From NCBI GenBank assembly GCA_943736015.1, contig OX031059.1, positions 58,725,159 to 58,789,158 of the forward strand: a stretch of DNA of 64,000 bases. Direction: 5' to 3'. The DNA is from Tridacna crocea. Its lineage: Eukaryota > Mollusca > Bivalvia > Cardiida > Cardiidae. This document shows positions 1 through 20,971 of this stretch, piece by piece. The first letter of the stretch is position 1; every line of letters begins with the position of its first letter. The notes beneath the pieces were generated by a model. The model saw nothing but the letters and a program-made list of their open reading frames with translations, searched no databases and had not been told where the DNA came from. Made by a program: the position numbers and the translations under genes.

Positions 1-630
1 TCCCCGTCAAGCCGCGATATTTTTTTCACCACCTGTTATTTTACGCCCGATCTGAATGTACAAAATACATCGGTAGCTTCTTAACTTTGATATGTAATAA
101 GCAAACAGGACAAATTCATGATGTCGCAATCTTTAAGTGAACAATTACAGAAATATTGAATCTATTGTAAATTGTAATACCTCCTTTTGTTTTTTTCCTG
201 AATATTATGATAAATGGAACTATTAAATTAAAAACATAACAAAAAAGATGGTCGATTTCTAAAGAAAAGCAAGAGCTAAGATAAAAAACCCTAACTCATT
301 TTTGTTACCATCTTTATCATCGTAATTTATAAAGTGATTATGTTACGTCGACCGTGTATTAGCGAGCTTTGAAAAGAGAGAAACTCTGCATTCAAGTACA
401 GCGTTTTCATTTTGTTCCAGTATTTTAAGGGCAAATTTCTATATGGCGTCAAAGGCGATGCTTCGAAATTTAAGTCAATAGTTATTCAAAAAGGTATTGA
501 GATCGTGATTGATGCTGATACATCTATTTATAGAGAGAAAGCATACATCTGTATGTCCATACAAATCTTTAGAAATGAGCCATGCTTTGTGTAAAGGAGG
601 CTTAATGCATCTGCAAAAAGTATCGACTCA

Positions 631-652
631 GGTCAGCCTGCACAGGCTGACC
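631..652. repeat. Perfect 22-bp hairpin in unit U
   Basis: GGTCAGCCTG and its exact reverse complement are separated by CA. In the other copies (about 28,559-28,589 and 37,861-37,891) the same arms enclose about ten extra bases, so the hairpin tip was lost in this copy. The motif resembles the core of bivalve MITEs. Confidence 0.75.
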
Positions 653-841
653 TCGATGGAATTATTTTGCTATTGGTCGATTTTCTGTATGTCGAAAGAA
701 CATTCTACCTAACTATTATGGCAATTGTCTAAAATAGTGGCTATTATGGATCCATAATTATGTGATGACATGCTCGATAAAATGCACCACGAAGGCGTAT
801 TAAAGCCCCATTTATATATTGCATATATGTAAAATATACAT

Positions 842-1512
842 GTTGATCAAATATATATTGCATATGAAGCCCCCTTTTTCCATGATACAGTGATAAATTG
901 CAAAACCCTGACAACACACGCTAAGGTCACATGATCTGTGAAAATTTCATCCAAATTTGTTGTAATTAAAGTGGTATTGGTGAAAAATGAAATATAACAT
1001 GAAGCCCTCTTATTCCATGATGCAGTAACAAATCCCCAAACCTTGACAACCTGCGTTAGGTCACATGATTCTGTGAATATTGCACCGAAATCTGCCAAGA
1101 AATGTGGAAGGCATTGCGTTCACAAGAAATAGAGTGAAAAAACATGAAGCCCTCTTTTCCCATGATGCAGCTACAAATCACCAAACCTTGACAATATGCG
1201 ATAGGTCACATGACGAGAAAACATTCTGTGAAAATTAAATTCAAATTCGTCAAAGAAATGTGGGAGGAGTTGCGATCACAAAAAAATGGAATTGAAAAAA
1301 AAAACAAAACAAAAAAAACATGAAGCCCCCTTTTCGATGATGCAGCTACAGGTTTCAAAACAAAACATTGACAATATCCGATGACGAGGAACATTCTGTG
1401 AAAATTTGATTCAAATCCGTCACGAAATGTAGGAGGAATATTCACAAGAAGCAGAATGAAATATACCATGAAGCCCCCTTTTTTCATGACGTAGCTAGTA
1501 ATCGCAAAAGCA
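842..1512 (-). repeat. Tandem array, about five units of roughly 150-170 bp
   Basis: Five diverged units each contain, on the + strand, a block like CATGAAGCCCCCTTTTTCC followed by ATGATGCAG, TTGACAATATGCGATAGGTC and TTCTGTGAAAATT. Unit starts lie near 860, 1,007, 1,143, 1,318 and 1,468. The array recurs at 22,590-23,110, 28,800-29,430 and (reversed) 37,020-37,670. It is absent from P-right, where the sequence jumps across it. Open frames here (for example 847-1,098 on the minus strand) are repeat translations, not genes. Confidence 0.8.
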
Positions 1513-1795
1513 TTGACAGAGTTGCGAAGGCAATCTGGGTTAAACTTTTTTTCCTTCATTTCCTAATGGTGGTAGATAGATGTGACAAGTTGAACGTAAA
1601 AATTCTGTACAATTTTTTTTTAAAATAAGACTGAAAACATTACAAGTGCACTGAACCGCGTAACTTAAAACTCGTTCCAAGTCGGCCATTTTGCATCGAA
1701 TAAAAAAAAAAAGTGTCTCGGGAGAATGGCTTATTGTACACATGGTATAAAGTTTCACGAAATTCCGTCCAGTGGAATCGGAGATATTTGCCGGG

Positions 1796-1876
1796 CCGGA
1801 CACACGGACGGACAAGCGGACGGACGGACGGACAGGCGGACGGACAAACAGACGGAAGGACGCACGGACGAACAAC
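1796..1876. repeat. GGAC/GACG microsatellite flanked by conserved body
   Basis: Irregular (GGAC)n with CAGGCG and CAAACAG interruptions, preceded by a conserved stretch reading, on the minus strand, CCGGCAAATATCTCCGAT. The same pair of blocks occurs at 14,500-14,560, 23,400-23,470, 29,735-29,805 and 36,640-36,730. It is a known type of dispersed invertebrate repeat by appearance. Cys/Pro/Ser/Val-rich frames across it are artefacts of the tetranucleotide repeat. Confidence 0.8.
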
Positions 1877-1889
1877 GCTAAAACTATAA

Positions 1890-2075
1890 AAGCTTTTTAA
1901 AAGTGATAAAATTCGTAAATGGGACAAAAACAGATAATGTTACGACCACAAAAGCTTTACTGGCAATAATAATGAATTAAATTATGACTGATTAGTCCCC
2001 AACTCTTACGTCCTCACGACACACCACTCTTCAATTTTGCAAGGCATGTTCGCTTTTTAGAAAATTATGCATGTA
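1890..2075 (-). repeat. GAGGACG module M1
   Basis: On the minus strand it reads GTGTCGTGAGGACGTAAGAG, then GTCATAATTTAATTCATAAT, then CAGTAAAGCTTTTGTGGTCG. It is closest to module M4 (7,485-7,525, and complete at 26,845-27,000), which lies in opposite orientation on the far side of the unit. Confidence 0.75.
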
Positions 2076-2829
2076 TTAGACTTAAAAATATCTGTGTTTA
2101 GGGCTTCCCTAAGGTACCCTACCTAGAAGATGCTGCCGATCCTTAACTGTTTACGCTACGATTGGAAAAAAGATCTGTCGGGTATGATTTCGGTACAAGT
2201 TCCATGAAAAGAATCTGGAAAAAAAATCATAAATCCCTACTTACCCTACCTACAGCATATCGGACCAAAACCCTACACACAGATTTTTGGTAAGGCCTTA
2301 GGGGTATTATACGGCCTATAGATATGAATCTACACGGATAAAAAAAAGTATGGACATAATTCTGCGTTATGGCATTTACTTTGCTGAGTTATATCTAACA
2401 CGTTGTGTCAGCTCAGGATTTGTGAACATTTCTAAAGCCTCCTAAGGTTAGTAAAACGCTTGTCGACAACCAAACTGTTCTGAAGCCAGAAAATTAAACT
2501 GTTAGCGGGTTTAAACAAGATAAAGGACTTCAAAGATTATCCGGAAAACAATGCACAGTTCTAATTGATAAGAATAAGATCAGGCATTCCTTCCTATAGA
2601 AAACTAAAACACACTTTGTCACTTAGATCCGGTCATAACCAGGAATAAAGCGAATAGTACTTTGGCAAGGGATGACTGATAGGACAAGAGTTAAGATTCA
2701 GATGCGAGCAAACAAACCAACAGCACGGCCTTTAACTTAGTATAGCTAATCAGTCATCATCCATATTTTTTATATGATGAATAAAGCATTTAAATAGGAC
2801 GGGATTTATTCCCTTCAAAAAATCTTGCC

Positions 2830-3350
2830 GTCAAGATTATGTATTGAGTTATAACAGACAAAACATTTAAATGAGGCAGAAAATTATACAGATTATAAAT
2901 TCATGCCGCTAAGATTATAAATCAAGTAATCACTGATAACTCCCGACCCGTCACGTCCTCATAACGTCATACTCACACTTTAAACTCTGTGGAACATGTC
3001 TCTCCATATGTATGGTTGGTAGCGGTCTTATTCAGTCCAATCTAAATCTACCCAAATCGTCAATATCTTCTTAGTTTTTACATGTAAGTGAACAGAACGG
3101 GCCCCAATCTTATAGCGAAAATGAATAGACCTATCACGTCCTCACAACGTCACACCCGCACTTCTCCAATGTATGGTTGGTAGCGTTCTTATTCAGTCCA
3201 ATCTAAATCTACCCAAATCATCAATATTTTCTTAGTTTTTACATGTAAGTGAACAGAACGGTCACCGATCTTATGCGAAAATGAATTGACCAATCTGCAA
3301 ATGTCTGATGCAATCTGTTCTTACTAATTGGTTCATAATGCTTATCTCGA
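2830..3350 (-). repeat. GAGGACG module M2 and left arm of the old inner palindrome
   Basis: Reverse-complemented, this stretch runs parallel to 6,280-6,640. Shared blocks are CTATTCATTTTCGCT, TAGATT-AGATTGGAC, CCGCTACCAAC, GAGGACGTGA-AGGTC, GAGTTATCAGTGA and TTTTCTGCCTCATTTAAATG. A partial second copy of the core (GAGGACGTGATAGG, minus strand) sits at about 3,125-3,145. Divergence from the right arm is much greater than between the P arms, so this palindrome is older. Confidence 0.7.
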
Positions 3351-3539
3351 ATAGTGTGCTAAAACTCCGTGGCTTTTCCAATCATATAAAAATAATGTAC
3401 GTAGCAGGCGGTCCGTATTGCAAAAATACAGTATTGTAAGAAAAACGATTTAACGAAGATTACATCGCTTTAATCATTTCTTTTTTGCGGGGCTGCTATT
3501 ATGTTGTTCTACTCTCCATGAAGGATTTCAAACATATTA

Positions 3540-3900
3540 TTTCGATCTCGAGGTTTTTGTCTAGTCTGCATTTGTTTCAAAATGCATGAAAAACATCTTA
3601 TAACTACAACAGAACTGAAAGAAACTTATCTTCTTCTATACACAGGCCCTTAGGAGCAACCATGGTAATTGAAATTACCCTTTGTCCCAGAGAATTTCAA
3701 TCGACGCAAAATTTTCCAAAAAATACAAGTTAGCCCCCCCCCCCCCCAACCTTGAATTGCTTCCTACGTGCCTGATTATTACATTAGAATCTTGTAATAC
3801 AATGACCTTTGAACACACTGCTTCAATTGGGAGAACTTGGCGAAAAATTCAACGGAGTCTATGTTAAAGAGAAATTTCAAATTGGAATCGAATATACATG
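3540..3900. repeat. Inner part of the left arm of the old inner palindrome
   Basis: The reverse complement of this stretch tracks 5,890-6,040. Shared words are AACATAG, TTTTTCGC, GCAGTGTGTT, AAGGTC-TTGTATT, TTTCTTTCA and GCATTTTGAA. The arms are diverged, with indels, including a poly-C run at 3,734-3,747. No coding frame is convincing. Confidence 0.5.
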
Positions 3901-4021
3901 TATTTATTTATTCATTGTCTACTTATTAATTTCCAAAATCAAATGCTAACTGAAGAGTGAAAAATTGAAAAAGTTTAGGATAACTTGCTGAATTTATCTA
4001 ACCTGACCCAGTCACTTTTTC

Positions 4022-4520
4022 CAAACTCACTTTGTGACAGGCCAAAATTTCCATTTCTCACATCTGGTAATGTAATGGAAAACTGCACATTAAACTTTAT
4101 GTTTTATACAATATCTATACAGTTTCTATGTAGTTTCCGTTTCGTGTAACTGTAGAATGGACCGAAGATCGGGTGGTACAAAACTTGCAGCCCGATCTTT
4201 GATCAATCCTGCTCGCTAAGAGAAGCAATTTTATTTGAATCGCAGTATTACGGGATCTGGTGCTGACTGGATATTTCCATTTCTACCATCCAGTAATGTA
4301 GTGGAAATTTGCACATTAATTTTTAAATCATATATTTTTATACAATATCTATGTTGTTTTCGTTTCGTATTACTGTAGAGTGGACCGCTGATCAGGTGGT
4401 ACAAAACTTGCAGTCTGATCTTCGATCTATTTTGCCCGTTCACGGACACAATAATTCGAAATTTTTCGTAATATTTGTTCTAGAACTGGCTGAAAGTTTC
4501 CATTTCTCCTATCGAGTAAT
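4022..4520. repeat. Diverged tandem repeat, about 230 bp, two to three units
   Basis: Units near 4,022-4,210 and 4,240-4,450 share TTTCCATTTCT, GTAATGTA-TGGAAA, TACAATATCTAT, GTTTCGT and GGTGGTACAAAACTTGCAG. A third partial unit starts near 4,475. The same pair recurs at 31,740-32,180 and (reversed) near 12,060-12,240. Short open frames on the minus strand encode look-alike peptides only because the DNA units are related. Confidence 0.65.
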
Positions 4521-4699
4521 TTAGTGGGAATTCGTCCATGTACTCATGTACTTCCTTTCTATATGCTTCCATATACTTTACTATATTCTGAAATAATCTC
4601 AACTCTACGATCATCTTCCATTTGAATTAACGTCTATTGAAATTATATCTATATCATCTGAAATAGTAGAGAAACCTGAAAAGATTGTTAACATTTATT

Positions 4700-4856
4700 C
4701 GTCTATTTTTTTTTATGTTGTTAACAAATCAATCCAACAACTTTATGTCTTTATATCTATTTGTTTTCCACGTATGTATTGAATTTATTTGTATTATCTG
4801 ACAATGAGCTGTATGCTTTAATTCCAAAATAAAATGTTATGTTATGTTATGTATAC
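4700..4856 (+). mobile_element. LINE/SINE-like 3' end with (ATGTT)n tail
   Basis: It ends ATTCCAAAATAAAATG followed by TTATGTTATGTTATG, a poly(A)-signal-like hexamer plus a short tandem pentamer typical of non-LTR retroelement 3' ends. Other copies of U have it at about 11,665-11,830 (reversed) and 32,420-32,575. In the 24,000 copy the tail is missing. The rest of the element is not recognisable. Confidence 0.5.
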
Positions 4857-4876
4857 AGACTACTTACAACATACTT

Positions 4877-5055
4877 ATGATATACGAGTATATACGACGA
4901 AACATGTCCTACATAATTTTTACAGTGAGTGTATCAATGTGAGGACGTAAAGGTCGGGATTAATTAATAATAAATTTATTCGTCATCTTATCAGCAAGAA
5001 CTTGTGATCGGTAAAGTCTTTTTCTCTAATCAAGTGTTTTGTCATTTTTATAGGC
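4877..5055 (+). repeat. GAGGACG module M5
   Basis: It contains AGTGTATCAATGTGAGGACG, ATCTTATCAGCAAGAACTTG and AAGTGTTTTGTCATTTTTAT, the same order of blocks as the other modules. It is missing from P-right. There, at about 11,650, TGACAAAA is followed directly by TGTTGTAAGT, so about 160 bp has been removed at the module edges. Confidence 0.75.
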
Positions 5056-5639
5056 TTTTGAATGTTAAAAGGTCCATCATGTTAATTAATACTTGATTAC
5101 TTTTACATTTCTATGGCCAACTCCTGAAGACCAAATTTGCACATATCTGTAGGTTGACCAGTGCATATTCTCCTGATTATTTGGTTGATCAATTGTACGG
5201 TGCTATATGCTACAGCTGCAATAGCTACAAAATATTGATGTTTGTCTAATTCTTGTCTGGAAGTCATTTTGGTTATTTCAATTTTGTGAATTGCACTTGA
5301 GCATGAATAAAGTTGTTCGTATTTGTAACAATTCTGAAAAAAATAAACAGGTTAATCCTCCCAATAATGATGAAATATGTGCGTAATTTAGATGACCTGA
5401 CTAAGTATCTAGCACAGCATTCATGAAGATTAAAAACTCCAGTCATGACGTAGGATTGGTCGTTTGTTTAGGGTTCGAGGGCGTGCGAACAGTGTATATA
5501 TATATCATGAATGACGGCTGTTCAAATGTTTATGTTTTCTAATCTCTTGTTAAGTCTATCATTCCGTCCCTGCAACAGTGCCTTAAGTGTCTCCAACGCC
5601 AAAATCCCGAATGTCAGTTCCTAAGTATGACTTAGTCAG

Positions 5640-5710
5640 GAATCGAACTAACGATCTTTCACACATATGTGTCTGTTTGATAAGTTTCTATTTTTTTTCT
5701 GACAGATAAG
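5640..5710 (-). repeat. tRNA-like fragment inside unit U
   Basis: On the minus strand the segment contains GTTAGTTCGATTCCTGAC, which matches the T arm / B box of a tRNA. No good A box or acceptor stem is visible. It is probably the decayed head of a tRNA-derived SINE. Confidence 0.4.
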
Positions 5711-6279
5711 ATTACATCATTCTAGCCAATAAATTAGATGGCCTAGACAATGCAGTAGAGTATTATAGTTTATATCAGCCTCGACCAGTTTTCTGTTGAG
5801 AAATCAATACAAAATTAAATTCTAACGATTCAAAAAGGGTCTAGATGATATAAACATTGTTTCCTCTGTTTCTGTCTCTCTGTTCGTCTCGCTCTATCAT
5901 TTCAACATAGCCATTGGCTTTTTCGCTTAGTTTTTTCGTTTGACGCAGTGTGTTTTAAGGTCTTTGTATTTTAAAAGTCTAATATTCAGTTGAAGGCAGG
6001 TTTCTTTCATTTAAATGTCTGCTATGATTTTTGTGCATTTTGAAGTAAACACTGGTTTATATAAAAGTCTTCGAATATCTAAATAGCGTGAATCTAAGCT
6101 TCTCCAAGGGGACAATTAGATTAGACCAGTCTGAAAAAAGAAAATAGCTGAAAACGAATTACTGTTTGTTTAGTCTTGAAAGACTTGAAATGTTGTTTTT
6201 ACAGAAAGTCTAGGTTTCTGCTAAGTACAGCAGGATTACTTGACTGGAATGTTCGTGGAATTTAAGAAAGAAATGCGAG

Positions 6280-6650
6280 GTGTTACCATATGAATCAGTT
6301 AGTAAGAAAATATTGCACCAAACATTTGCGACCAGTGAAATTCGGAATCAGCCTATTCATTTTCGCTGTATATAAGATCAGGGTCCTTTCTGTTTACTTA
6401 CCGCATGTTAAAGCTTTGACAATATTCGTGATTCAGGTAGATTCAGATTGGACCTAAAAAGACCGCTACCAACTACGCATATTGACATATCCTACAGAAG
6501 TTATGTTGAGTGTGTCATTGTGAGGACGTGATAGGTCAAGAGTTATCAGTGAAAACTTGATTTACGGTGTTATCGGTATGAACTTATAATCGGTATAATT
6601 TTCTGCCTCATTTAAATGTTTTGTCTGTTATCAAATAAAAAGTAGTGATC
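6280..6650 (+). repeat. GAGGACG module M3 and right arm of the old inner palindrome
   Basis: It contains TGTCATTGTGAGGACGTGAT, GAGTTATCAGTGAAAACTTG and TTTTCTGCCTCATTTAAATG, and pairs with the reverse complement of 2,830-3,350. M2 and M3 are the most similar pair of modules and lie in inverted orientation, as expected for the two arms of one long-terminal-inverted-repeat element. Confidence 0.7.
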
Positions 6651-6956
6651 GCTGATGACTGATTATTAAATAAGGTCTAAGTCTATGTCACAGGGTTTTT
6701 TAATATAATTATTATGTATCACCATGGACGACATGAATATTCGTGTTTCTGAACCTTAAGTCTTTCTAATAATCATGGATCGAAACAAAGACCGTATGTT
6801 ATTACAGCGGTTTGTCTGTTTAATTGAACATCAGTCGTATTAATATTTGTTAAAGGTCTTTTTCATTCTCAGCAATGACACAAACGACTCGAGTAATAAA
6901 TGATTGAGTGTGTAAGTTTTTTGTAGGAAATATCACACGTATTATTATCATATCAC

Positions 6957-7183
6957 TAAGATTGATTGCATGGTGTTTGATGTCGCTTTAAACACAATTT
7001 GAGTCATATCACGGTAACATCACACATTCATGTATTTCCTGGGTTTCACAAACACAAGGGTAAGGCTCTGAAGTGTCCTACCCGAGGAAACTCCCTCTAA
7101 AACTTAGTGGATCCACTGAGGCTCGAATTCGCGGTCTCCAATTCACAAGTCCTGCTCTTTACAACTGAACCAAGCAGGACGTC
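6957..7183 (-). mobile_element. tRNA-derived SINE within unit U
   Basis: Read on the minus strand, it starts with a tRNA-like head (TTGGTTCAGTTGTAAAGAGC, then CGAATTCGAGCCTCAGTG as a degenerate B box). It continues through a body containing CACTTCAGAGCC and TATGACTCAAATTGTG and ends GTTTAAAGCGACATCAAACA then CAATCAATC. Head, body and the CAATCAATC tail match the order of the SINE at 61,053-61,325. Further copies are at 26,309-26,540 (-), 34,020-34,255 (+) and 8,480-8,705 (+). Confidence 0.7.
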
Positions 7184-7484
7184 CTATCTATTTGAACAAG
7201 GCACTGTATCCCGGGATATGATAAGTCTATTATTTTATCAAACTTGCTTATAGTCTCATTTCTATTTTCTGACTTAATATCAGTTCTTTAGTTGAGGCAC
7301 ATGTCACTAGTGTTAAAATATTTAGGAACATTCTAAAACCGTTAGCCGACTGGACGGTTCAGACCCAACTCCGCATCATAAACGTGTATAACTCAGAGTT
7401 AATTCAATTGTTTGTGAACTGATAGATTCAGATAGGAGTGGTTGATTTTGCCAACACGAATGATTTCTTAAAGGTCGAAACATG

Positions 7485-7524
7485 TCCTGCAAAAGTTGAG
7501 AGTAAGTGTATCATTGCGGGGACG
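7485..7524 (+). repeat. GAGGACG module M4, truncated at the palindrome junction
   Basis: It reads TGCAAAAGTTGAGAGTAAGT and CATTGCGGGGACGAGAT, then departs from the sister copies. The complete version is at 26,845-27,000. The mirror-image copy reaches the same point at about 8,152. This marks the inner boundary of the large palindrome. Confidence 0.7.
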
Positions 7525-8151
7525 AGATTTGCAGATAGGTTTTTTTCCTATTTCTGCGTTATCTATTACACTTTTTTTACTATTAAAGAAAACAATGTTT
7601 ATAAGAAAGTCCTCGAGACTGAAACATTATGAATAAAATTCAATACAGGATGCAGAACAAAGTAAGACTAAGTAAAATTATACACAACTAGATCAGGGTC
7701 TGTAGTGTACAGAGCGAGCATATATGTCCATACAAACCTCAGTACATATGTCGAATAATGTATGAATTAATGATTTTGACCATTACGAGATTATTCCCTA
7801 CCATATCGTTCAAATCGTGCAATCACGACCACTGCCACGAACCTCCCCCCCCCCCCCGCCCCCCGCCTCCACACACACATCCAACAATTGACGTGTCTGC
7901 ATTAGACGATCCTTGAAAGCAGTGTGAAAAAAAACGACGAGCAATTCTTCCTATTGTCTCAATTTTGTGCAAAAAGTGCAGTCTACATTTACCACGCAAA
8001 TTAAAAACCAATACGTTTCGAGAGAAGCAAGGGAACGTCTACAGTAAAGAAAGTTTGTACAAAATAAATATGAAAAACAAAGTCTTGCTGACAAGATTAT
8101 GAATTAAAATATGACTTCTTAGTCTCAATCTATCTCGTCCTCGCAATGTTA
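7525..8151. repeat. Spacer at the centre of palindrome P; end segment of unit U
   Basis: This stretch is present once in the palindrome. Its reverse complement follows module M4 directly at 26,880-27,740, so it belongs to the right-hand copy and is the terminal part of a complete U. It contains a poly-C tract with CCGCCCC at about 7,845-7,868. No gene is visible. Confidence 0.7.
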
Positions 8152-8556
8152 CACTTACTCTCAACTTTTGCAGGACATGTTTCGACCTTTTAAGAAATCA
8201 TTCGTGTTGGCAAAATCAACCACTCTTTTCTGAATCTATCAGTTCACAAACAATTGAATTAACTCTGAGTTATACACGTTTATGATGCGGAGTTGGGTCT
8301 GAACCGTCCAGTCGGCTAACGGTTTTAGAATGTTCCTAAATATTTTAACACTAGTGAAATGTGTCTCAACTAAAGAACTGATATTAAGTCAGAAAATAGA
8401 AATGAGACTATAAGCAAGTTTGATAAAATAATAGACTTATCATATCCCGGGATACTGTGCCTTGTTCAAATAGATAGGACGTCCTGCTTGGTTCAGTTGT
8501 AAAGAGCAGGACTTGTGAATTGGAGACCGCGAATTCGAGCCTCAGTGGATCCACTA

Positions 8557-9442
8557 AGTTTTTCGAGAGAGTTTCCTCGGGTAGGACACTTCAGACCCTT
8601 ACCCTTGTGTTTGTGAAACCAAGAAATACATGAATGTGTGATGTTACCGTGATATGACTCAAATTGTGTTTAAAGCGACATCAAACACCATGCAATCAAT
8701 CTTAGTGATATGATAATAATACGTGTGATATTCCCTACAGAAAACTGTTACACACTCAATCATTTATTAATTGAGTCGTTTTTGTCATTGCTGAGAATGA
8801 AAAAGACCTTTAACGAATATTAAAACGACCGATGGTCAATCAAACAGACAAACCGCTGTAATAACTGGTGGTCTTTGTTTCGATCCCAGACCAGATCATA
8901 TCTACGAATTACGAGAATAGTACTATGGCAAGAGATGACTATTAGGAAGATTTAGGGTTCAGAAACACGAATATTCATGTAGTCCATGGTAATACATAAA
9001 GTTTTTCAAGAGAGTTTCCTCGGGTAGGACACTTCAGACCCTTACCCTTGTGTTTGTGAAACCCAAGAAATACATGAATGTGTGATGTTACCGTGATATG
9101 ACTCAAATTGTGTTTAAAGCGACATCAAACACCATGCAATCAATCTTAGTGATATGATAATAATACGTGTGATATTCCCTACAGAAAACTGTTACACACT
9201 CAATCATTTATTAATTGAGTCGTTTTTGTCATTGCTGAGAATGAAAAAGACCTTTAACGAATATTAAAACGACCGATGGTCAATCAAACAGACAAACCGC
9301 TGTAATAACTGGTGGTCTTTGTTTCGATCCCAGACCAGATCATATCTACGAATTACGAGAATAGTACTATGGCAAGAGATGACTATTAGGAAGATTTAGG
9401 GTTCAGAAACACGAATATTCATGTAGTCCATGGTAATACATA
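8557..9442. repeat. Tandem duplication, 443 bp, two near-identical copies
   Basis: The sequence from GTTTTTCGAGAGAGTTTCCT to GGTAATACATAA is repeated immediately, starting at 9,001. Only scattered single-base differences are seen (for example GAAACCAAG versus GAAACCCAAG). No other copy of U carries the duplication, so it is recent. Confidence 0.9.
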
Positions 9443-10560
9443 ATAATTATATTCAAAAACTCTGTGACATAGTCTTAGACTTTATATAGATTATCAGTCA
9501 TCAGCGATCACCACTTTTTATTTGATAACAGACAAAACATTTAAATGAGGTAGAAAATTATACCGATTATAAGTTCATACAGATAACACTGTAAATCAAG
9601 TTTTCACTGATAACTCCTGACCTATCACGTCCTCACGATGACACACTCAACATAACTTCTGTAGGATATGTCAATATGCGTAGTTGGTAGCGGTCTTTCT
9701 AGGTCCAATCTGAATCTACCTGAATCACGAATATTGTCATAGCTTTAACATGTGGTAAGTGAACAGAAAGGACCCTGATCTTATGTACAGCGAAAATGAA
9801 TAGGCTGATTCCGAATTTCACTGGTCGCAAATGTTTGGTGCAATATTTTCTTACTAACTGATTCATATGGTAACACCTCGCATTTCTTTCTTAAATTCCA
9901 CGAACATTCCAGTCAAGTAATCCTGCTGTACTTAGCAGAAACCAATACTTTCTGTAAAAACAACATTTCAAGTCTTTCAAGACTAAACAAACAGTAATTC
10001 GTTTTCAGCTATTTTCTTTTTTCAGACTGGTCTAATCTAATTGTCCCCTTGGAGAAGCTTAGATTCACGCTATTTAGATATTCGAAGACTTTTATATAAA
10101 CCAGTGTTTACTTCAAAATGCACAAAAATCATAGCAGACATTTAAATGAAAGAAACCTGCCTTCAACTGAATATTAGACTTTTAAAATACAAACACACTG
10201 CGTCAAACGGGAAAACTAAGCGAAAAAGCCAATGGCTATGTTGAAATGATAGAGCGAGACGAACAGAGAGACAGAAACAGAGGAAACAATGTTTATATCA
10301 TCTAGACCCTTTTTGAATCGTTAGAATTTAATTTTGTATTGATTTCTCGACAGAAAACTGGTCGAGGCTGATATAAACTATAATACTCTACTGCGTTGTC
10401 TAAGCCATCTAATGTATTGGCTAGAATGATGTAATCTTATCTGTCAGAAAAAAATAGAAACTGTTATCAAACAGACACATATGTGTGAAAGATCGTTAGT
10501 TCGATTCCTGACTATGTCATACTTAGGAACTGACATTCGGGCTTTTGGCGTTGGAGACAC

Positions 10561-11106
10561 TTAAAGGTGGCCCTTTAGATATTGGGACAAAATTTAAAAA
10601 AAAATACAAAAAAGTCATCCTTGTACTCCCAAAGCCTTATAATTTTCATTCATTAAACCCCAGGAGTCGAAAGCCATCCGACAGCTAGATAAATTAGAGA
10701 TTTGCTACAGCCCAGGTCGACACTGAAGGGAAATAGAGTCTATTTTTACATGAGCAACTCGCTCATTTACATACCGGAAATATACAGACGAAGCTTCAAA
10801 CATAGCATCCGAAATTCTTGACATTATGGAAAATAATTAAATGTTTGTTATGTTATGGAATTAAAAAGTCATAAGTCACGTGCAAGTCACTTAACATTCC
10901 CAGAATGCTTTTTTGATTTTGGTGGGAAATCTAAATATAGCTTAAGAGGCTACGTAGCCTTTTAAGGGAATAACACCAAAACTTTTTTTTTGCAATTTTA
11001 AAATTCTTAATTACTGATGATTTGTATTGTTTTTTCATATAAATTTCAGTGACATATATATCTTTTAATTTGGTGTGATGTGAAAATTCCAAATACCCAC
11101 CTTTAA
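10561..11106. mobile_element. TTAA-flanked non-autonomous DNA transposon, 538 bp
   Basis: The insert (10,565-11,102) is flanked by TTAA on both sides. The other copies of U have a single TTAA at the same place (ACACTTAAGGCAC in P-left, reverse complement near 5,590). The ends read AGGTGGCCCTTTAGATATT and, reversed, AGGTGGGTATTTGGAATTT, giving short imperfect terminal inverted repeats. Precise TTAA duplication is the signature of piggyBac-type transposition. There is no transposase frame, so it must have been mobilised in trans. Confidence 0.85.
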
Positions 11107-12402
11107 GGCACTGTTGCAAGGACGGAATGATAGACTTAACAAGAGATTAGAAAACATAAACATTTGAACAGCCGTCATTCATGATATATTTAAACACTGT
11201 TCGCACGGCCTCGAACCCTAAACAAACGACCAATCCTACGTCATGACTGGAGTTCTTAATCTTCATGAATGCTGTGCTAGATACTTAGTCAGGTCATCTA
11301 AATTACGCACATGTTTCATCATCATTGGGAGGATTAACCTGTTTATTTTTTTCAGAATTGTTACAAATACGAACGACTCTATTCATGCTCAAGTACAATT
11401 CACAAAATTAAAATAACCAAAATGACTTCCAGACAAGAATTAGACAAACATCAATATTTTGTAGCTTTTGCAGCTGTAGCATATAGCACCGTACAATTGA
11501 TCAACCAAATAATCAGGAGAATATGCACTGGTTAACCTACAGATATGTGCAAATTTGGTCTTCAGGAGTTGGCCATAGAAATGTAAAAGTAATCAAGTAT
11601 TAATTAACATAATGTGCATTTTAACATTCAAAAGCCTATAAAAATGACAAAATGTTGTAAGTCGTCTGCATACATAACATAACATAACATTTTATTTTGG
11701 AATTAAAGCATACAGCTCATTGTCAGATAATACAAATAAATTCAATATATACGTGGAAAGCAAATAGCTATAAAGACATAAAGTTGCTGGATTGATTTGT
11801 TAACAACATGAAAAAAATAGATGAATAAAATAACGTTAACAATCTTTTCAGGTTTCTCTACTATTTCAGATGATATAGATATAATTTCAATAGACGTTAA
11901 TTCAAATGGTAGATGATCGTAGAGTTGAGATTATTTCAGAGTATAGTAAAGTATATGGAAGCATATAGAAAGGAAGTACATGAGTAAAATGGACGAATTC
12001 CCACTAAATTACTCGATAGGAGAAATGGAAACTTTCAGCCAGTTCTAGAACAAATATTACGAAAAATTTAGAATTATTGTGTCCGTGAACGGGCAGAGTA
12101 GATCGAGGATCAGACTGCAAGTTTTGTACCACCTGATCTCCGGTCCACTCTACAGTAATACGAAACGAAAACAACATAGATACTGTATAAAAATATATGA
12201 TTTAAAAATTAATGTGCAATTTTCCACTACATTACTAGTTCTCCCGATTGAAGCAGTGTGGTCAAAGGTCATTGTATTACAAGAGTTGAATATAATAAAC
12301 AGGCACGTAGGAAGCAATTCAAGATTGGAAAATTTTGCGTCGATTGAAATTCTCTGGGACAAAAGGCAAATTCAATTACCATGGTTGTCAAAATTAATGA
12401 GT

Positions 12403-12438
12403 GGGGGGGGGGGGGGTTTAGCCCCCCCCCACCCCCCT
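12403..12438. repeat. Poly-G followed by poly-C
   Basis: A G run, TTTAG, and a C run face each other and could fold as a hairpin. The sister copies have a shorter poly-C or poly-G tract at the corresponding place (3,734-3,747 and 34,675-34,687). Length variation by slippage is likely. Confidence 0.7.
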
Positions 12439-12784
12439 GTTCCTACGGGCCTGTGTATAGATGAAGATAAGTTTCTTTCAGTTATGTTAACGTTATAAGA
12501 TGTTTTTCATGCATTTTGAAACAAATGCAGAATAGACAAAAACCTCGAGATCAAAATAGTATGTTTGAAATCCTTTACGGAGTGTAGAACAACATAATAG
12601 CAGCCCCCGCAAAAAAAAGAAATAATTAAAGCGATGTAATCTTCGTTTAATCATTTTTCTTACAATACTTTTTTTTTTTCAATACGGACCGCCTGCTATG
12701 TACATTATGTTTATATGATTGGAAAAGCCACGGAGTTTTAGCGCACTATTCCAGATAAGCATTATGAACCAATTAGTAAGAACA

Positions 12785-12982
12785 GGGTGCGTATTCACCA
12801 ACCATTCTTGAGAATATTCTTGGTCTTATTCTCCAAGGTTTTCCAAATTTGTAAGTAACACAACTTCTGATTGGCTAAACCGAATGGTTTAGCCAATCAG
12901 AAGTCGTGTTACTTACAAATGTAGAAAATTCTGGAGAACATTACCAAGAACGTTCTTATGAATGGATGGTGAATACAGGCCC
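12785..12982. mobile_element. Hairpin MITE, about 198 bp
   Basis: The ends read GGGTGCGTATTCACCAACC and, reversed, GGGCCTGTATTCACCATCC. The centre (12,847-12,920) is a near-perfect hairpin with arms containing GTAAGTAACAC and CTGATTGGCTAAACC. Every other copy of U lacks it: AGTAAGAACAGATTGC is continuous there. The target duplication is at most one or two bases, so the superfamily is uncertain. Confidence 0.8.
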
Positions 12983-15236
12983 AGATTGCATTAGACATTT
13001 GCGGATTGGTCAATTCATTTTCGCATAAGATCGGGACCCTTCCGTTCACTTACATGTAAAAACTAAGAAAATATTGATGATTCGGGTAAATTTAGATTGG
13101 ACTGAGTAGGATCGCTACCAACTATACATGTACATATGGAGAAATATGTTCTACAGAAGTTAAGTGCGGGTGGAACGTTGTGAGGACGTGATAGGTCCAT
13201 TCATTTTCGCTATACGATCGGGACCCTTCCGTTCACTTACATGTAAAAACTAAGAAAATATTGATGATTTGGGTAGATTTAGATTGGACTTAATAAGACC
13301 GCTACCAACCATACATATGGAGAGCCATGTTTCACAGAGTTTAAAGTGTGAGTGTGACGTTATGAGGACGTGACAGGTCGGGAGTTATCAGTGATTACTT
13401 GATTTATAATCTTAGCGGTATGAATTTATAATCTGTATAATTTTCTGCCTCATTTAAATGTTTTTTCTGTTATAACTCAATACACAATCTTGACGGCAAG
13501 ATTTTTTGAAAGAAATAAATCCCGACCTATTTATATGCTTTATTCATCATATAAAAAATATGGTTGATGACTGATTAGCTATACTAGGTTAAAGGCTATG
13601 CTGTTGGTTTGTCAGATACATGTATTACGAAGACAATATTTTTTATTATGTATCTGCTCGCATCTGAATCTTAACTCTTGTCTTATCAGTCATCCCTTGC
13701 CAAAGTACTATTCGCTTTATTCCTGATTATGACCCGATCTAAGTGACAAAGTGTGTATTAGTTTTCTATAGGAAGGAATGTCTGATCTTATTCTTATCAA
13801 TTAGAACAGTGCATTATTTTCCGGACAATCTTTGAAGTCTTTAATCTTGTTTAAACCCGCTAAAAGTTTCATTTTCTGGCTTCAGAACAGTTTGGTTGTC
13901 GACAAGCGTTTTACTAACCTTAGGAGGCTTTAGAAATGTTCACAAATCCTGAGCTGACACAACGTGTTAGATTCAACTCAGCAAAGTAAATGACATAACG
14001 CAGAATTATGTCCATACTTTTTTTTTATCCGTGTAGATTCATAGCTATAGGCTGTATAATACCTCTAAGGCCTTACCAAAAATCTGTGTGTAGGGTTTCG
14101 GTCCGATATGCTGTAGGTAGGGTAAGTAGGGATTTATGATTTTTTTCCAGATTCTTTTCATGGAACTTGTACCGAAATCATACCCGACAGATCTTTTTTC
14201 CAATACTAGCGTAAACAGTTTAGGATCGGGAGCATCTTCTAGGTAGGGTACTGTAGGGAAGCCCTAAACACAGATATTTTTAAGTCTAATACATGCATAC
14301 TTTTCTAAAAAGCGAACATGCCTTGCAAAATTGAAGAGTGGTGTGTCGTTGTGAGGACGTAAGAGTTGGGGACTAATCAGTCATAATTTAATTCATAATA
14401 TTTTCAGTAAAGCTTTTGTGGTCGTAACATTATCTGTTTTTGTCCCATTTACGAGTTTTGTCACTTTTGAAAAGCTTTTATTATAGTTTTAGCGTTGTTC
14501 GTCCGTGCGTCCTTCCGTCTGTTTGTCCGCCTGTCCGTCCGTCTGTGTGTCCGGCCCGGCAAATATCTCCGATTCCACTGGACGGAATTTCGTGAAACTT
14601 AATACCATGTGCACAATATCCCATTCTCCCGAGACGCTTTTTTATTATTATTCGATGCAAAATGGCCGACTTGGAGCGATTTTTAAGTTACGCTGTTCAG
14701 TTCACTTGTAATGTTTTTAGTCTTATTTAAAAAAAAAAACTAAACAGAATTTTTATAACTATTGACTTAAATTTCGAAGCATCGCCTTTGACGCCATATA
14801 GAAATTTGCCCTTAAAATACTGGAACAAAATGAAAACGCTGTACTTGAATGCAGAGTTTCTCTCTTTTCAAAGCTCGCTAATACACGGTCGACGTAACAT
14901 AATCACTTTATAAATTACGATGATAAAGATGGTAACAAAAATGAGTTAGGGTTTTTTATCTTAGCTTTTGCTTTTCTTTAGATATCGACCATCTTTTTTG
15001 TCATGTTTTTACTTTTCCCCTGCATTATAGTTCCATTTATCATAATGTTCAGGAAAAAAACAAAAGGAGGTATCACAATTCACAACAGATTCAATATTTC
15101 TGTAATTGTTCACTTAAAGATTGCGGCATCATGAATTTGTCCTGTTTGCTTATTACATATCAAAGTTTAGAAGCTACCAATGTATTTTGTACATTCAGAT
15201 CGGGCGTAAAATAACAGGTGGTGAAAAATATGTCGC

Positions 15237-15309
15237 GGCTCGACCGTGACTCGAGCCCAGGGCCTCACGAATACCGTTCCTGCACTCTAACCAACTGAGC
15301 TACCGAACC
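15237..15309 (-). ncRNA. tRNA-like sequence at the start of unit U (P-right)
   Basis: See the better preserved copy at 27,881-27,953. Here the T arm has decayed to GGGCTCGAGTCACGG and it is unlikely to be a working tRNA gene. Confidence 0.4.
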
Positions 15310-15439
15310 ACATGTCGACACGGCCGCACGATATATCACCAAACACCTGTACCCGACTTCATTATACCTTTACATCTATCTATGGGATAGACCAGTATAC
15401 TACAGTAATAAGACTTATTATCGTGTATGGTTTCTCTAT

Positions 15440-15600
15440 GGCGAGGCATGTCCTGCATTACTTAATAGTGTAGAGTTCAGAGGACGTGATGTGTCGATGA
15501 ATAAGTATTGTAAAATTCATATTCTTATCATCGAGAATAAGCCAAAGGCATAATATTACGTTTTATGCAAGTATTTTGTCTGCTTTAAAATTCGAAATTC
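15440..15600 (+). repeat. GAGGACG module M6
   Basis: It contains GGCATGTCCTGCATTAC, TTCAGAGGACGTGATG, ATTCTTATCATCGAGAATAA and AAGTATTTTGTCTGCTTTAA, in the same block order as the other modules. It forms the outer edge of P-right. Confidence 0.6.
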
Positions 15601-15960
15601 TCTTATATTTCATGAGAGAAATATGTCCAATCTTCAACGAAAGGGATACCCTATGGTTCGTCATCCTGTCAACTTTTTTAAAAATAGACATAAGGTCATG
15701 ATGGTCCCATTTCTAAAATTAATGACATTACAAAGTTAGTTACATGTATTAGCTTAGACTGATTGGGGTTTTAAGCCGAGTTAAACACGAATTCCGTTTT
15801 ATTGTTGCCGTCAGTACACCTTTTCATGTGTCCCTAACATCAGTTTTCCACTGCTCACCACTGCTCATACAACTCTTCCAAGCTATTAACTGCTCTTTAG
15901 ATAGCAAAGATGAGAGGGAAATTAAAATTGCCAGAAAGTTATCGAGAGGTATCGAGAGCG
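15601..15960. other. Gene-free stretch
   Basis: AT-rich sequence between the end of unit U and a SINE. I see no gene, no repeat shared with the rest of the window and no strong hairpin. Confidence 0.6.
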
Positions 15961-15962
15961 CC

Positions 15963-16175
15963 ATGGGTACTGTGTGGCTCAGTAGTAAAGCGTAGGACTC
16001 GTGACCTGAAGGTCCCGGGCTCGAGCCCTCCTCAACGGGCTTTTTCACGGGAGCGTCCTTAGGTAAGAAGCCTTTGAACCCTAGCCTAATACTGCTTAAA
16101 ACCAGAAATTACATAAATATGTGAGTTGTTACTGAAATATGACTGAAATAATATTGATAGGTGTGTAGAACTTCA
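15963..16175 (+). mobile_element. tRNA-derived SINE
   Basis: The head reads TGTGTGGCTCAGTAGTAAAG (A-box region) and GGTCCCGGGCTCGAGCCC (B-box region). The body ends near ATATGACTGAAATAATATTG, which parallels the TATAACTGAAATAATGTTG near the end of the SINE at 61,053-61,325. The 3' tail is degraded. Confidence 0.6.
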
Positions 16176-16849
16176 ATCGACCAGGTATAGAGCCTGTGTC
16201 CTTCACATAAATTTACATACAATATATAATGTCGGAGAAGAATACACCTGTTCACTTCATAAAGATAAAGTCAATCGCAGGATATATAATTTAATCCTTT
16301 ACCGCAAAGTATTTATTTCAGACGCCACCTGATTTTTTTTCTTTTTTATGGGGAATGATGCGGGATACAGGATGAAACCTTTCCTAAATTACGCCTGGTT
16401 CTTTAATGTGCTCGGTTTACAGAGACGATACAGTGGAGCTCTTATATCTCATTCGAACGCCTATTAGTAATTTGAGATGAATGAAAGCACAATAATAGAG
16501 TTATCAAAAAATCTATGTAAGGTATAGGCATTAGTTTGAAGATGTAAGAAACAACGAAAAGAGAATCATGATTACCAGAATCTGAAACCTTTGCAATATA
16601 TCTAGACTATTCTCACTTAGTTCTACCCTTTGTATTCTAGAATTGTTCAGCGGACAAAGTAGAACTTCCTACTTTGCGCGAGGCAATACCGGAATTGTCT
16701 GGATTCTTACATTGCGCAGAACCTATATTTAATATTTAACCCGAACGATAACCAGAAAAACAACGCCTTTAAAGTTTGGTTTGATATCAATTTGGTTTTC
16801 CAGTTTATAAATCGCACTTTCCAACATAATCATAGTCGAAACAACGGTC

Positions 16850-16985
16850 ATGGGTGAGACAGGAATGAATCTTGTCAAATTGACTATCATCAATACTCGG
16901 AAAGAAATTGGCCAAGCCGTGGATCGAACCCGAGACCCTTATTTCTTAAGTCCTGCACGCTACCGACTTGGCCACCGGGGCTCGG
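16850..16985 (-). mobile_element. tRNA-derived SINE, head and part of body
   Basis: On the minus strand it reads CCGGTGGCCAAGTCGGTAGC (A box), then TCTCGGGTTCGATCCACGGC (B box), then a body with TATTGATGATAGTCAA and GATTCATTCCTGTCTCACCC. That body also occurs in the SINE at 61,053-61,325. The 3' part is missing. The same copy is present in segment B at about 43,070-43,220. Confidence 0.65.
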
Positions 16986-17429
16986 CTTAGTATGTAGCAT
17001 AACTCTTCTTGAAACAGAAATAAAAACGAGATCTTATAATCCCAACCCGGACCAGCCTACGCGGTTTGCACAGACGATTACGGCACCTTCATATACATGT
17101 ATTTAATGCAGAGACTACAGATTACATTTTGCCTGTCTTTTTCCTCTAAACATTTCTGGTAGGTTGCAGACTTCTCACCTTTATAAATACACATTTAGGA
17201 CAGGACAGAAAACTACTATCATACTATCATATTAAGTTTGTTACCATTTTCAAATACATTCGCTATTTTATCCCACTTTACCTGGAAGCAGTACTCAGAA
17301 TACCTATCCTTCTGCAAACAAGTTATTTCGTTGAAATGATATCCCCTGCTATCCCCCCGCGGATTTTTATATAGAAATGAATAAGAGGTGTATATTACCT
17401 ACACGTGGCCCTTTTTTGTTATTGGTCCA

Positions 17430-17625
17430 TAATGAATTCATACATTAAGCCCTCCTTTTCCATGACATGGCATTTCATCCATTAAAAAAGTGATTGTCTG
17501 TGGCTTGTAATATACTATATAAAAACGAAGAAATTGTGTCTTGTAGTTAGATATTGGTACATAATGAAAAGATACATCAAGCCCCCCCCTTTTCCATGAC
17601 ACGGCATTAAATACTACTACTAGTA
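17430..17625. repeat. Two tandem blocks with a CCTTTTCCATGACA motif
   Basis: ATTGGTCCATAATGAA..CC followed by CCTTTTCCATGACATGGCAT appears twice, about 125 bp apart. It recurs in segment B (46,000-46,190) and three times at 22,050-22,240. The motif resembles the repeated core of the 842-1,512 array. Confidence 0.6.
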
Positions 17626-17894
17626 CTGCATACTACTACTGCTACTATATTATAGCATAGTATTCTGACACACACAACTTGTTTTTGAAAAGGACGAGTA
17701 TTCTTATGAAAAGGATGTATAAGTAAATGTTAAATTTCGCTCGTCGATTAACCCCAGCTGGTGACCTTTTTGTGTTAATTAAATTAGAGCAAGTATAAAA
17801 GATAACCAAAGGTGATGGAAAGTGAGAAAATCTGTTAACTGAGAGTTTCTGACCAATCAATAACAATAAACCAAACACACTTTCAATATAAATC

Positions 17895-18560
17895 GCTGTT
17901 GCGAGGACGTGAAGTATTTTATGTGGACACCGGTTACAAATGGATTTGATTGGATAAAGCTTCCGGTGATACTACATTCTGATTGGCTATCTAAGCACAC
18001 TTTTGCACTTCAAGTCACGTGATATTTTTACCTCGAGTAAATTGTGTGTTGGGCAGGGAGTGCATGATTTTTTTGCGACATTATGAGGACTTTTTAAAAT
18101 TTGCAAATTTTAAACATACAGCTAAAAATGAACATTTCTATTGAAAATCATTGTGAGGACCAGAGTGCAAGTCCTCTCATTGCAAACAGTCCTCGGGATG
18201 TTGGTGCGCGTCAAGGGTCGGGTCCTCGCAAGTCAGCAAATACACACACACACACATACACACACACACACACGTATTGCATTCGTTCTGAGGACCTTGA
18301 AACTTTACGTCATTATGAGGACTCACTGAAGCCATAGAGCTACAGAACTGGCAGTTTGTAATTACAATAATGTTCACATCCAGAAAAAGATTTTTTACAA
18401 ATATCAACGTTACACTCGACTAGTATGACCTAAAAACGTTCTGAGGACTCTACCTATTTTCCATACAAAGTGAGGACACGTTATGAGGACGTTGAATTCT
18501 TCCATCAAAACGAGGACCTTGCTTGCACACTTGCAATTTAACAACATTGTGGGGACTTAC
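17895..18560. repeat. Cluster of GAGGAC hexamers
   Basis: GAGGAC or its complement GTCCTC occurs twelve times between 17,903 and 18,517, mostly in the context TTRTGAGGAC, with GGGGAC at 18,551. The first six positions are also present in segment B. A random sequence of this length would contain less than one. The spacing is irregular (about 13-180 bp), so this is not a simple tandem repeat. The same hexamer is the core of the modules in unit U. Confidence 0.8.
18239..18274. repeat. (CA)n microsatellite
   Basis: Pure CA dinucleotides with one AT interruption. Segment A loses its match to segment B at this tract, which may have been the breakpoint of the duplication. Confidence 0.95.
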
Positions 18561-19555: not shown

Positions 19556-19608
19556 ATGTCGTCTGATGTAAGGCGCAAAGGCGCAGAAAAATACCCGACT
19601 GCAGGAGG
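19556..19608 (+). CDS. Candidate first exon (weak)
   Basis: ATG at 19,557 in the context GTCAAAATGTC opens a 17-18-codon stretch (MSSDVRRKGAEKYPTAG) of balanced codon use. It ends at a plausible donor, CAGGAG|GTAATG. Without splicing the frame closes after about 28 codons. I see no partner exon downstream. It could be the start of a gene whose other exons are outside the window, or chance. I do not recognise the peptide. Confidence 0.22.
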
Positions 19609-19727
19609 TAATGCTTCAATTAATGAATGGTGTTTTTTGTAAGCAATAGCATAATTGTAGAACAAATCATTTCTGATACAACACCACATTAATTAAACAT
19701 TTATCTCTACATGTGTATATACATGCA

Positions 19728-20965: not shown

Positions 20966-20971
20966 AATGAT

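Follow-up and report, generated by a model that had tools for sequence, protein, structure and literature searches.

Nested palindromes in Tridacna crocea form the interior of a dispersed element of about 28 kb sited in AC microsatellites

Introduction

Long inverted repeats are generally unstable. A palindrome that encloses an older palindrome raises the question of what it belongs to and how its layers came about. Such a structure occupies the first part of the window analysed here, a stretch of 64,000 nucleotides from Tridacna crocea (contig OX031059.1), where a unit (U) forms one arm of a large palindrome (P1) and is itself folded. The initial annotation took U to be an older inverted structure and offered two origins for the nesting, namely inversion-duplication acting repeatedly over time, or long-inverted-repeat elements inserted into one another.

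Methods

U was aligned with itself, and inverted matches were judged against 100 dinucleotide-preserving shuffles of positions 1-7529 (best match 48.2 bits; the maxima had a median of 30.1 bits). Counts of GAGGAC boxes were each compared with 200 shuffles. In each genome search only 40 of the first-look candidates (140, 48, 50, 398, 176 and 1104) were scored, and copy numbers are therefore lower bounds. For the comparison of arms by segment, matches covering less than 85% of a segment were dropped, and matches below set bit cut-offs or off the best chain were also removed before counting. Six-frame Pfam scans (stops read as X) covered the left region of copy C6, U minus its last ~0.9 kb, the right region of C6 and 7.4 kb of the sister lineage (B); roughly 22 kb of C15, which spans 30 kb, fell outside them, as did C10, the spacer and the U copies c and e.

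Results

Inner and outer palindromes

Self-alignment confirmed an old palindrome within U. Positions 2851-3128 paired in reverse with 6631-6353 (78.6% identity, 285 columns, 229 bits), 3128-3337 with 6537-6289 (70.7%, 249 columns, 115 bits) and 3783-3868 with 5983-5901 (74.4%, 86 columns, 55 bits); a fourth pair, 2857-3002 with 5043-4899, reached 49.1 bits, just over the best shuffle. The reverse pairing proposed in the initial annotation thus held for both pairs of blocks, except that the second left block had been drawn too wide (3540-3900), significance being confined to 3783-3868. The arms are also less alike than those of P1, as had been proposed, and since the P1 arms are 92.6-96.9% identical by block, as against 70.7-78.6% for the inner arms, the contrast is real. 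The features are listed in Table 1.

Table 1. Features of the palindromes and element copies in the window (positions of the window; a dot marks features without strand).
Feature	Position	Strand	Remarks
Element copy C4a, part in window	1..18243	+	left end 9.24 kb left of window, C4:58715915
P1 left arm = unit U, copy d (outer palindrome)	1..7528	+	self-alignment
~150-bp tandem repeats in U	864..1518	-	with ACGG microsatellite 1797-1874
M1 block, outermost left block of inner palindrome	1951..2063	-	GAGGAC box
Inner palindrome left arm, M2 region	2851..3337	.	self-alignment; holds 161-bp tandem duplication 3001-3295
Inner palindrome second left block	3783..3868	.	self-alignment against shuffles
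M5 block, near axis	4898..5043	+	GAGGAC box
Inner palindrome second right block	5901..5983	.	self-alignment against shuffles
Inner palindrome right arm, M3 region	6289..6631	.	71-79% to left arm in reverse
M4 block, inner end of outer left arm	7476..7528	+	short; box is GGGGAC
Spacer S, centre of P1	7529..8131	.	inverted relative to copies C6, C3a, C3b
P1 right arm = copy e (outer palindrome)	8132..15466	-	self-alignment
tRNA-Thr(GGT)-like sequence, outer end of P1 right arm	15235..15309	-	no ARAGORN call; partner straddles left edge of window
Right end of C4a	17903..18243	+	GAGGAC box cluster; last 23 bp GGTCCTCGCAAGTCAGCAAATAC
(AC)n common to C4a end and C4b start	18244..18273	.	between head-to-tail copies
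Element copy C4b	18274..46820	+	both ends present; later insertions inside
C4b palindrome P2, left arm	27734..33760	+	tRNA-like 27881-27955
C4b palindrome P2, right arm	33761..38696	-	tRNA-like 38511-38585; centre and spacer lost

The annotated affinity of M1 for M4 was recovered as well, the best partner of M1 being an M4-type block (1951-2063 against 8079-8197, 72.5%), and the right-arm equivalents of this pair were 75.6% identical. The left-arm M4 of the window measures only about 50 bp, a consequence of the centre being flipped there. In copy C6 the M1-M4 pairing extended over 185 columns (72.4%, 86 bits), and six blocks, this pair included, have a common axis at 18065-18274 (joined C6 coordinates); three weaker pairs, of M-type blocks with one another, fall off it. 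The centre of the outer palindrome is its unstable part, flipped or deleted in individual copies: among seven copies the spacer had the same orientation in three, was inverted in one and was lost in three. The tandem repeats of U and the ACGG microsatellite look like a captured module of the Pearl/HINE type.

A dispersed element and its ends

A dispersed element of about 28 kb has U and the outer palindrome as its interior. At least 35 end-paired intervals were found in the 1.05-Gb genome, with a median of 28.3 kb and 34 of the 35 within 21-37 kb; interiors were read in a minority of them. The window holds most of one copy (C4a) and the whole of a second (C4b), head to tail. C4b is interrupted by a reverse-transcriptase element.

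The ends of the element, GTATTGCATTCGTTCTGAGGACC and GTATTTGCTGACTTGCGAGGACC, have GTATT(T)GC and GAGGACC in common, a candidate terminal inverted repeat that is short and imperfect; when the outer 3 kb on the two sides of C6 were compared, no longer inverted match was found. A search for the terminal 23 bp of the right end, with up to 3 mismatches allowed, gave 48 matches, of which 41 were exact; among the exact ones are 8 of 11 matches with 84-94% identity. Three right ends (C6:588, C7:327 and C6:595) had been missed by a longer probe, and the first two were read over 1.2 kb each. At C6:588 the right end directly abuts interior sequence from the left part of the element, present as an 88% copy, and at C7:327 the right end is adjoined by tandem repeats unlike C6, C15 or C10.

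Blocks M1-M5 bear a motif that clusters at the ends of the element. GAGGAC boxes numbered 7 in U (shuffle mean 0.90, maximum 5), 6 in the L region (0.46, maximum 3), 5 in the R region (0.27, maximum 3) and 15 in the interior of lineage B (1.37, maximum 4), the counts in U and B not being independent because both contain duplications.

Target sites

At 25 loci, taken without the tandem neighbours on C3 and C4, an (AC) run of at least 8 bp lay within 60 bp of the left end in 24 cases and of the right end in 22. The joined flanks of one copy gave 41 matches, and at no fewer than 35 places they matched end to end; scoring covered 40 of 398 candidates. These uninterrupted sites are one host repeat family, and all six that were read already have (AC)n. 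The same (AC)n of this host repeat is occupied at two filled loci, whose right ends belong to different lineages, and a third match of the joined flanks adjoins the right end at C6:31.94 Mb. A non-autonomous DNA transposon is recognised by dispersed copies with constant ends and by empty target sites, and both were found here.

No clear target-site duplication was seen at the loci read, where the flanks are mostly (AC)n and a duplication would escape notice because it would be hidden in them; at a locus on C1 with little AC none was seen by eye. A long candidate duplication at C12w was rejected, the target being a minisatellite that carries AC. The loci C7 and C11z have both flanks in common, and segmental duplication therefore accounts for at least one of the insertions.

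Coding content

No Pfam domain exceeded its cut-off in the parts scanned, and the element is apparently gene-free. Matches to ESCRT-II (E 0.053, 14.2 bits) and to an apicomplexan microprotein (E 0.0039, 17.7 bits) were rejected at a cut-off of 27. An autonomous partner or enzyme was not found in the pieces at C6:588 and C7:327, whose sole frame of 90 codons or more crosses the right end into the flank. The right-end pattern, the only pattern scanned against viral contigs, gave 0 matches there.

Relative ages of the layers

The initial annotation expected divergence to grow from outer to inner palindromes, and K2P distances in the window did so, from 0.03-0.05 between the outer arms to 0.20-0.28 between the inner arms; M1-M4 stood at 0.58, a value from no more than 66 bp. 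Across five young copies, like arms were 97.2-99.6% identical (0.4-2.8% apart), as against 94.2-97.5% (2.5-5.8% apart) for outer arms d and e inside one copy, from which we infer that the palindrome predates the spread of the young copies. Pieces of U and of the sister lineage are mostly 86-92% alike. The inner palindrome is older than the split from that lineage, and the outer palindrome appears younger than the split. Lineage B has the same right end, yet it has nested palindromes of its own (own arms 95.8%, centre 92.2%, older pairs 78-80%), and self-inversion therefore occurred more than once. The proposal that inversion-duplication acted repeatedly over time is accordingly supported by the inner and outer K2P ranges, the identity of like arms among young copies and the palindromes of the sister lineage.

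Gene conversion can make arms look young; an example is segment S4, in which d of C3a, C3b and C11 resembles c more closely than does the d of C6. Over its first 370 bp the B piece comes nearest to copy c (94.9%), not to d or e, and the direct c-d duplication may therefore predate the lineage split there.

Discussion

Origin of the nested palindromes

We consider it probable that the nested palindromes make up the inside of a giant transposable element of ~28 kb, non-autonomous and apparently non-protein-coding, that moved by means of its ends and was refolded by self-inversion. An enzyme made elsewhere would recognise the ends (GTATT(T)GC...GAGGACC with the GAGGAC box cluster) and would insert the element within (AC)n microsatellites, the target itself being observed. 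Movement would require the ends only, so that the interior would be free to rearrange, and repair or replication of the long element may now and then switch strand and copy back, giving an inverted duplication. The inner arms of U would have formed first and, after the lineage split, the outer palindrome here and separate ones in the sister lineage; the finished structure would then have spread recently as a unit, and individual copies have their palindrome centres flipped or deleted.

Passive spread is an unlikely alternative. Here a block of ~28 kb, excised as circles or duplicated in segments, would reinsert by homologous or microhomology recombination of the (AC)n that flanks it with (AC)n elsewhere in the genome, and would need no dedicated enzyme. 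(AC)n at both ends, the head-to-tail pairs C3a-C3b and C4a-C4b, each with one common (AC)n, the lack of a clear target duplication and the shared flanks of C7 and C11z all agree with it. C4a and C4b also group together in an unrooted tree of the left region (support 0.999), although this split is the one that sets off the young copies. Against it, the right-end 23-mer is exact in 41 of 48 matches though neighbouring sequence is 14-16% apart in lineage B, and the border falls at the same base despite differing adjoining interiors (A, B, and those of the C6:588 and C7:327 types). Nor are the tandem pairs especially alike in the left region, where C4a-C4b (96.9%) compares with C4b-C6 (98.0%), and C3a-C3b (99.0%) with C3b-C6 (99.2%).

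That separate long-inverted-repeat elements inserted into one another, the second origin offered in the initial annotation, is improbable. Nested insertion does happen in the window, as the reverse-transcriptase element within C4b illustrates; M blocks appear repeatedly, in either orientation, three M-type pairs depart from the common axis, and two inner-arm matches (C2:262125 and C2:284470) are near no listed end. The inner palindrome is, however, coaxial over six blocks in C6, and when the best 40 matches of each sequence are counted, end-paired intervals contain 36 for the inner arm and 38 apiece for the tRNA-like end and for the M4 block with spacer; of the eight outside, C2:62.4 Mb accounts for four and C6:31.9 Mb for two, a right end being known there. 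For these arms the proposal is unsupported, since the best-40 matches lie mostly inside the intervals of one larger element. Long palindromes are difficult to assemble, but false palindromes from collapsed haplotypes or hairpin reads are extremely improbable given arms 2.5-5.8% apart within copies but 97.2-99.6% identity between like arms of different young copies, and given both orientations in 14 of the 24 elements that hold the best 40 tRNA-like matches.

Comparison with known mobile elements

The favoured reading, a transposable element moved by its ends, invites comparison with several known systems. Very long inverted repeats, differing from copy to copy, are common to the present element and to foldback-type and long-TIR DNA transposons (FB and Galileo of Drosophila, for example). 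In Foldbacks these run up to the element ends, whereas the palindrome arms here are nested and, in the copies compared, internal; an imperfect repeat of about 23 bp stands at the termini, and the target is (AC)n. Teratorn and Maverick/Polinton are giant animal mobile elements that encode proteins. The present element resembles them in spanning tens of kilobases, in its dispersal and in the conservation of both ends, but differs in showing no protein domain in the parts scanned; polymerase B, integrase and capsid domains, typical of Maverick/Polinton, were not found in six-frame scans of L, U minus its last ~0.9 kb, the C6 right region and 7.4 kb of B. With the tyrosine-recombinase giants Starship and Crypton, which are large and insert at specific targets, it has size and target specificity in common, but not a recombinase domain (in the parts scanned), and it has imperfect inverted ends. 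In non-autonomous Helentrons (HINE), among them the Pearl family of bivalves, ~150-bp repeats adjoin an ACGG/GTCC microsatellite (PMC7492417), and by that description U is like them in its repeats at 864-1518 and the adjoining 4-bp microsatellite (ACGG, 1804-1870), central repeats of ~150-170 bp being found within U only, but the module is about 1 kb of 28 kb and the element's own ends are an imperfect inverted repeat in (AC)n.

More speculatively, and with low probability, the element could stand for a class of giant mobile DNA that consists of ends plus folded filler. It would need no genes inside, would move by site-specific exchange at (AC)n, and would grow by inverting itself time after time, so that its layers form a record that can be dated. 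The junction of the two ends would then have the form GCAAATAC-(AC)n-GTATTGC, in which a recombinase-like inverted pair flanks (AC)n as spacer, and the interior GAGGAC boxes, as putative binding sites of the enzyme, may also be points where copying turns.

The locus provides a clear case of a ~28-kb element sited in AC microsatellites, whose layers would be a record of growth by self-inversion. It bears on how large non-coding mobile elements gain palindromic interiors and persist as long inverted repeats, and this can be tested by means of the 48 right ends, at least 35 end-paired copies, relative layer dates, sister palindromes, empty sites, and flipped or deleted centres.

Inner and Outer Palindromes

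The initial annotation had proposed that unit U, whose copies d and e form the outer palindrome P1, contains an older inverted structure with arms less alike than those of P1. In the window self-alignment three inverted inner pairs were recovered at 70.7-78.6% identity (Table), against 92.6-96.9% per block for the outer arms, and all three scored above the top inverted match (48.2 bits) of 100 dinucleotide shuffles of 1-7529. The proposed nesting of the blocks holding a GAGGAC box (M1-M2-(M5)-M3-M4) was borne out by this alignment and by the U copy of C6, a copy elsewhere in the genome, in which six blocks, M1-M4 included, have one axis in common (18065-18274, C6 coordinates). The M1-M4 pair there is 72.4% identical across 185 columns, and three weaker M-type/M-type block pairs sit off the common axis. 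M4 appears short in the window because the spacer S at the centre of P1 is inverted there.

Features of the window (window coordinates)
Feature	Position	Orientation	Observation
Giant-element copy C4a	from 9.24 kb left of window to 18243
Giant-element copy C4b	18274-46820
Inner pair of U	2851-3128 vs 6631-6353	inverted	78.6%, 229 bits
Inner pair of U	3128-3337 vs 6537-6289	inverted	70.7%, 115 bits
Inner pair of U	3783-3868 vs 5983-5901	inverted	74.4%, 55 bits
Spacer S	7529-8131	reverse of three other copies
Palindrome in P1 right arm	12791-12976		186 bp, 82.8% to own reverse; possibly a MITE-like insert
Insertion in C4b	38706-42679		about 4 kb, absent from C6
Reverse-transcriptase element inserted in C4b	43471-45794
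Non-LTR retrotransposon fragments	50787-52029	minus	weak, sub-cut-off RVT_1 and Exo_endo_phos matches
Palindrome outside giant elements	60447-60859		413 bp, 82.6%

A Dispersed Element of About 28 kb

The genome (1.05 Gb; window at C4:58725159-58789158) was searched with the inner arm, and the best 40 of 140 candidates were scored, the query itself counted. Genome size, retroelement remnants and HINE-like repeats suggest a eukaryotic source, probably a bivalve. A complex layout is common to all four other loci examined: left end, a shortened U copy c, spacer S, copy d, in some copies S again, the inverted copy e, and right end. C6 matched the copies C3a, C3b, C11 and C5 at 95.4-98.9% per block over most of the 28 kb. 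The two window copies are separated by (AC)n only. Pairing of ends by place and orientation, with a minority of interiors read, gave 35 intervals spanning 21.1-62.1 kb; the median is 28.3 kb, and all but one fall within 21-37 kb.

Several loci stand out. At C15:30803941-30866064 the paired ends enclose 62 kb, double the usual length. At four loci (C2:75.52, C2:72.33, C6:38.49 and C9:55.90 Mb) a second left end lies inverted 3.5-5.2 kb inside the first; in these copies a palindrome appears to have formed from the left end. The copies at C7:40.51 and C11:37.38 Mb have both flanks in common, so this insertion appears to have been copied as part of a segmental duplication. Inner-arm matches (92%) at C2:262125 and C2:284470, with no listed element end nearby, may be either truncated copies or independent fragments of U.

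Element Ends and Target

At the left end the sequence is (AC)n-GTATTGCATTCGTTCTGAGGACC; the reversed right end is GTATTTGCTGACTTGCGAGGACC. Using these ends as probes, the best 40 of 50 candidates (left, 227 bp) and the best 40 of 48 (right, 233 bp) were scored. Both flanks were read at 25 loci; an (AC) run of 8 bp or longer was present no more than 60 bp from the left end in 24 of them and from the right end in 22. As background, of 2000 60-bp pieces drawn at random from window positions 47501-64000, 27 had at least three AC units on either strand. The elements at C4:17.03 Mb and C7:50.97 Mb, whose right ends come from two separate lineages (98% and 86% identity with the probe), sit within copies of one host repeat. 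The joined C4:17.03 Mb flanks retrieved 35 uninterrupted host-repeat copies among 41 matches (best 40 of 398 candidates scored); all six that were read carry (AC)n at the insertion point, which demonstrates empty sites.

The terminal 23 bp of the right end were exact in 41 of 48 matches (up to three mismatches allowed). Their exactness even in 8 of the 11 matches that are 84-94% identical to the 233-bp probe points to a functional right end. At two more right ends the adjoining interior is of yet another kind.

Content of the Element

A six-frame scan, with stops read as X, gave no Pfam domain above cut-off in the parts covered: the left and right regions of C6, U up to its last ~0.9 kb, and two stretches of the sister lineage B totalling 7.4 kb. 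Within the C6 copy, stop-to-stop frames reach at most 182 codons. A tRNA-Thr(GGT)-like sequence lies at the outer end of each arm. ARAGORN called it in each of the two arms for C6, C5, C3a and C4b and in a single arm for C11 and C4a, and both C4b sequences were scored by Rfam; one of the C6 sequences, folded at minimum energy, did not form a cloverleaf. In a genome search with this sequence and its flank, 38 of the best 40 matches (1104 candidates) fell inside paired intervals, and among these best 40 both orientations were present in 14 of the 24 elements holding matches.

The GAGGAC box of M1-M5 (GGGGAC in window M4) also clusters at both element ends. C6 holds 30 boxes and C15 holds 33 in 29.4 kb, versus 6.0 and 5.6 expected from base composition. 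Counts in four regions exceeded every one of 200 shuffles each; those in U and B are inflated by duplicated stretches, but the excess is present independently in the left and right regions.

Among other repeats, the reverse-transcriptase element in C4b has a 559-codon frame (43904-45583) matching RVT_1 below the 29.6 cut-off (E 2.6e-06, 27.7 bits), and its first 369 bp recur inverted near its end (99.7%); from the YVGETERQLNERM stretch it appears Penelope-like. Frame 39253-39837 of the other C4b insertion resembles a non-LTR tail by eye and had no Pfam match. A second self-palindrome, besides that in the P1 right arm, lies in C3a (13336-13611).

Order of Palindrome Formation

Among the five young copies, like arms share 97.2-99.6% identity and are closer than d and e within one copy (94.2-97.5%; c versus d 93.0-96.6%, in the segments compared), and the outer palindrome therefore predates the spread of these copies. 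The window copies are more diverged members: across the left and right regions, C4a is 96.0-96.8% and C4b 97.5-98.4% identical to the young group.

Lineage B (C15, C10) is ~86% identical to lineage A, that of the window and C6, at the right end and mostly 86-92% in pieces of U. One of these pieces matches the other inner arm of A in reverse at 76.5%, close to the 78.5% within A, which places the origin of the inner palindrome before the A/B split. Lineage B is about equally distant from d and e (87.3% each over 1455 bp), which in C6 share 97% identity over this stretch; judged from these distances, the outer palindrome appears younger than the split, unless rejuvenated by gene conversion. Over its first 370 bp the B piece is 94.9% identical to copy c, so that the direct c-d duplication may be older in that stretch, which counts against a simple order. 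Outside its U pieces lineage B has its own palindrome (13900-17555 vs 22870-19205, 95.8%) and further layers (centre 92.2%, third copy 92-93%, older pairs 78-80%). The initial suggestion of repeated inversion-duplication is thus supported, and at least three rounds of palindrome formation across the two lineages are needed.

Mechanism and Relation to Known Systems

The element has dispersed as a whole unit into (AC)n with an exact right end, and its palindromes are stepwise, with flipped or lost centres: among seven copies the centre spacer has the same orientation in three, is inverted in one and lost in three. The 28 kb element, taken as a whole, lacks the features tested for foldback elements and, in the parts scanned, those tested for Polinton; a module inside U has the layout described for bivalve Pearl/HINE elements. 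Open-licence PubMed Central papers yielded neither an equivalent of the 28 kb element nor literature on strand-switching gap repair.

Spread of the element by passive recombination via (AC)n, the main rival explanation, would account for head-to-tail pairs, but leaves the exact 23-bp end in diverged lineages unexplained, and tandem neighbours show no special closeness to each other (C4a-C4b 96.9% vs C4b-C6 98.0%; C3a-C3b 99.0% vs C3b-C6 99.2%). An unrooted left-region tree places C4a and C4b together (support 0.999), a grouping that fails to decide the matter since the same split sets off the young copies. We consider passive spread unlikely. The best explanation, which we hold to be probable, is an element of ~28 kb with ends read by an enzyme supplied in trans and an interior grown by self-inversion; the U-arm matches on C2, the likeness of part of the B piece to copy c and the result of the tree slightly lower our confidence in it and raise that in passive spread. 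Such an enzyme would read both ends and boxes. Transposon gap repair would provide a basis for duplication by strand switching, and the inverted duplications may have arisen from strand-switching copying during repair or replication of the long element.
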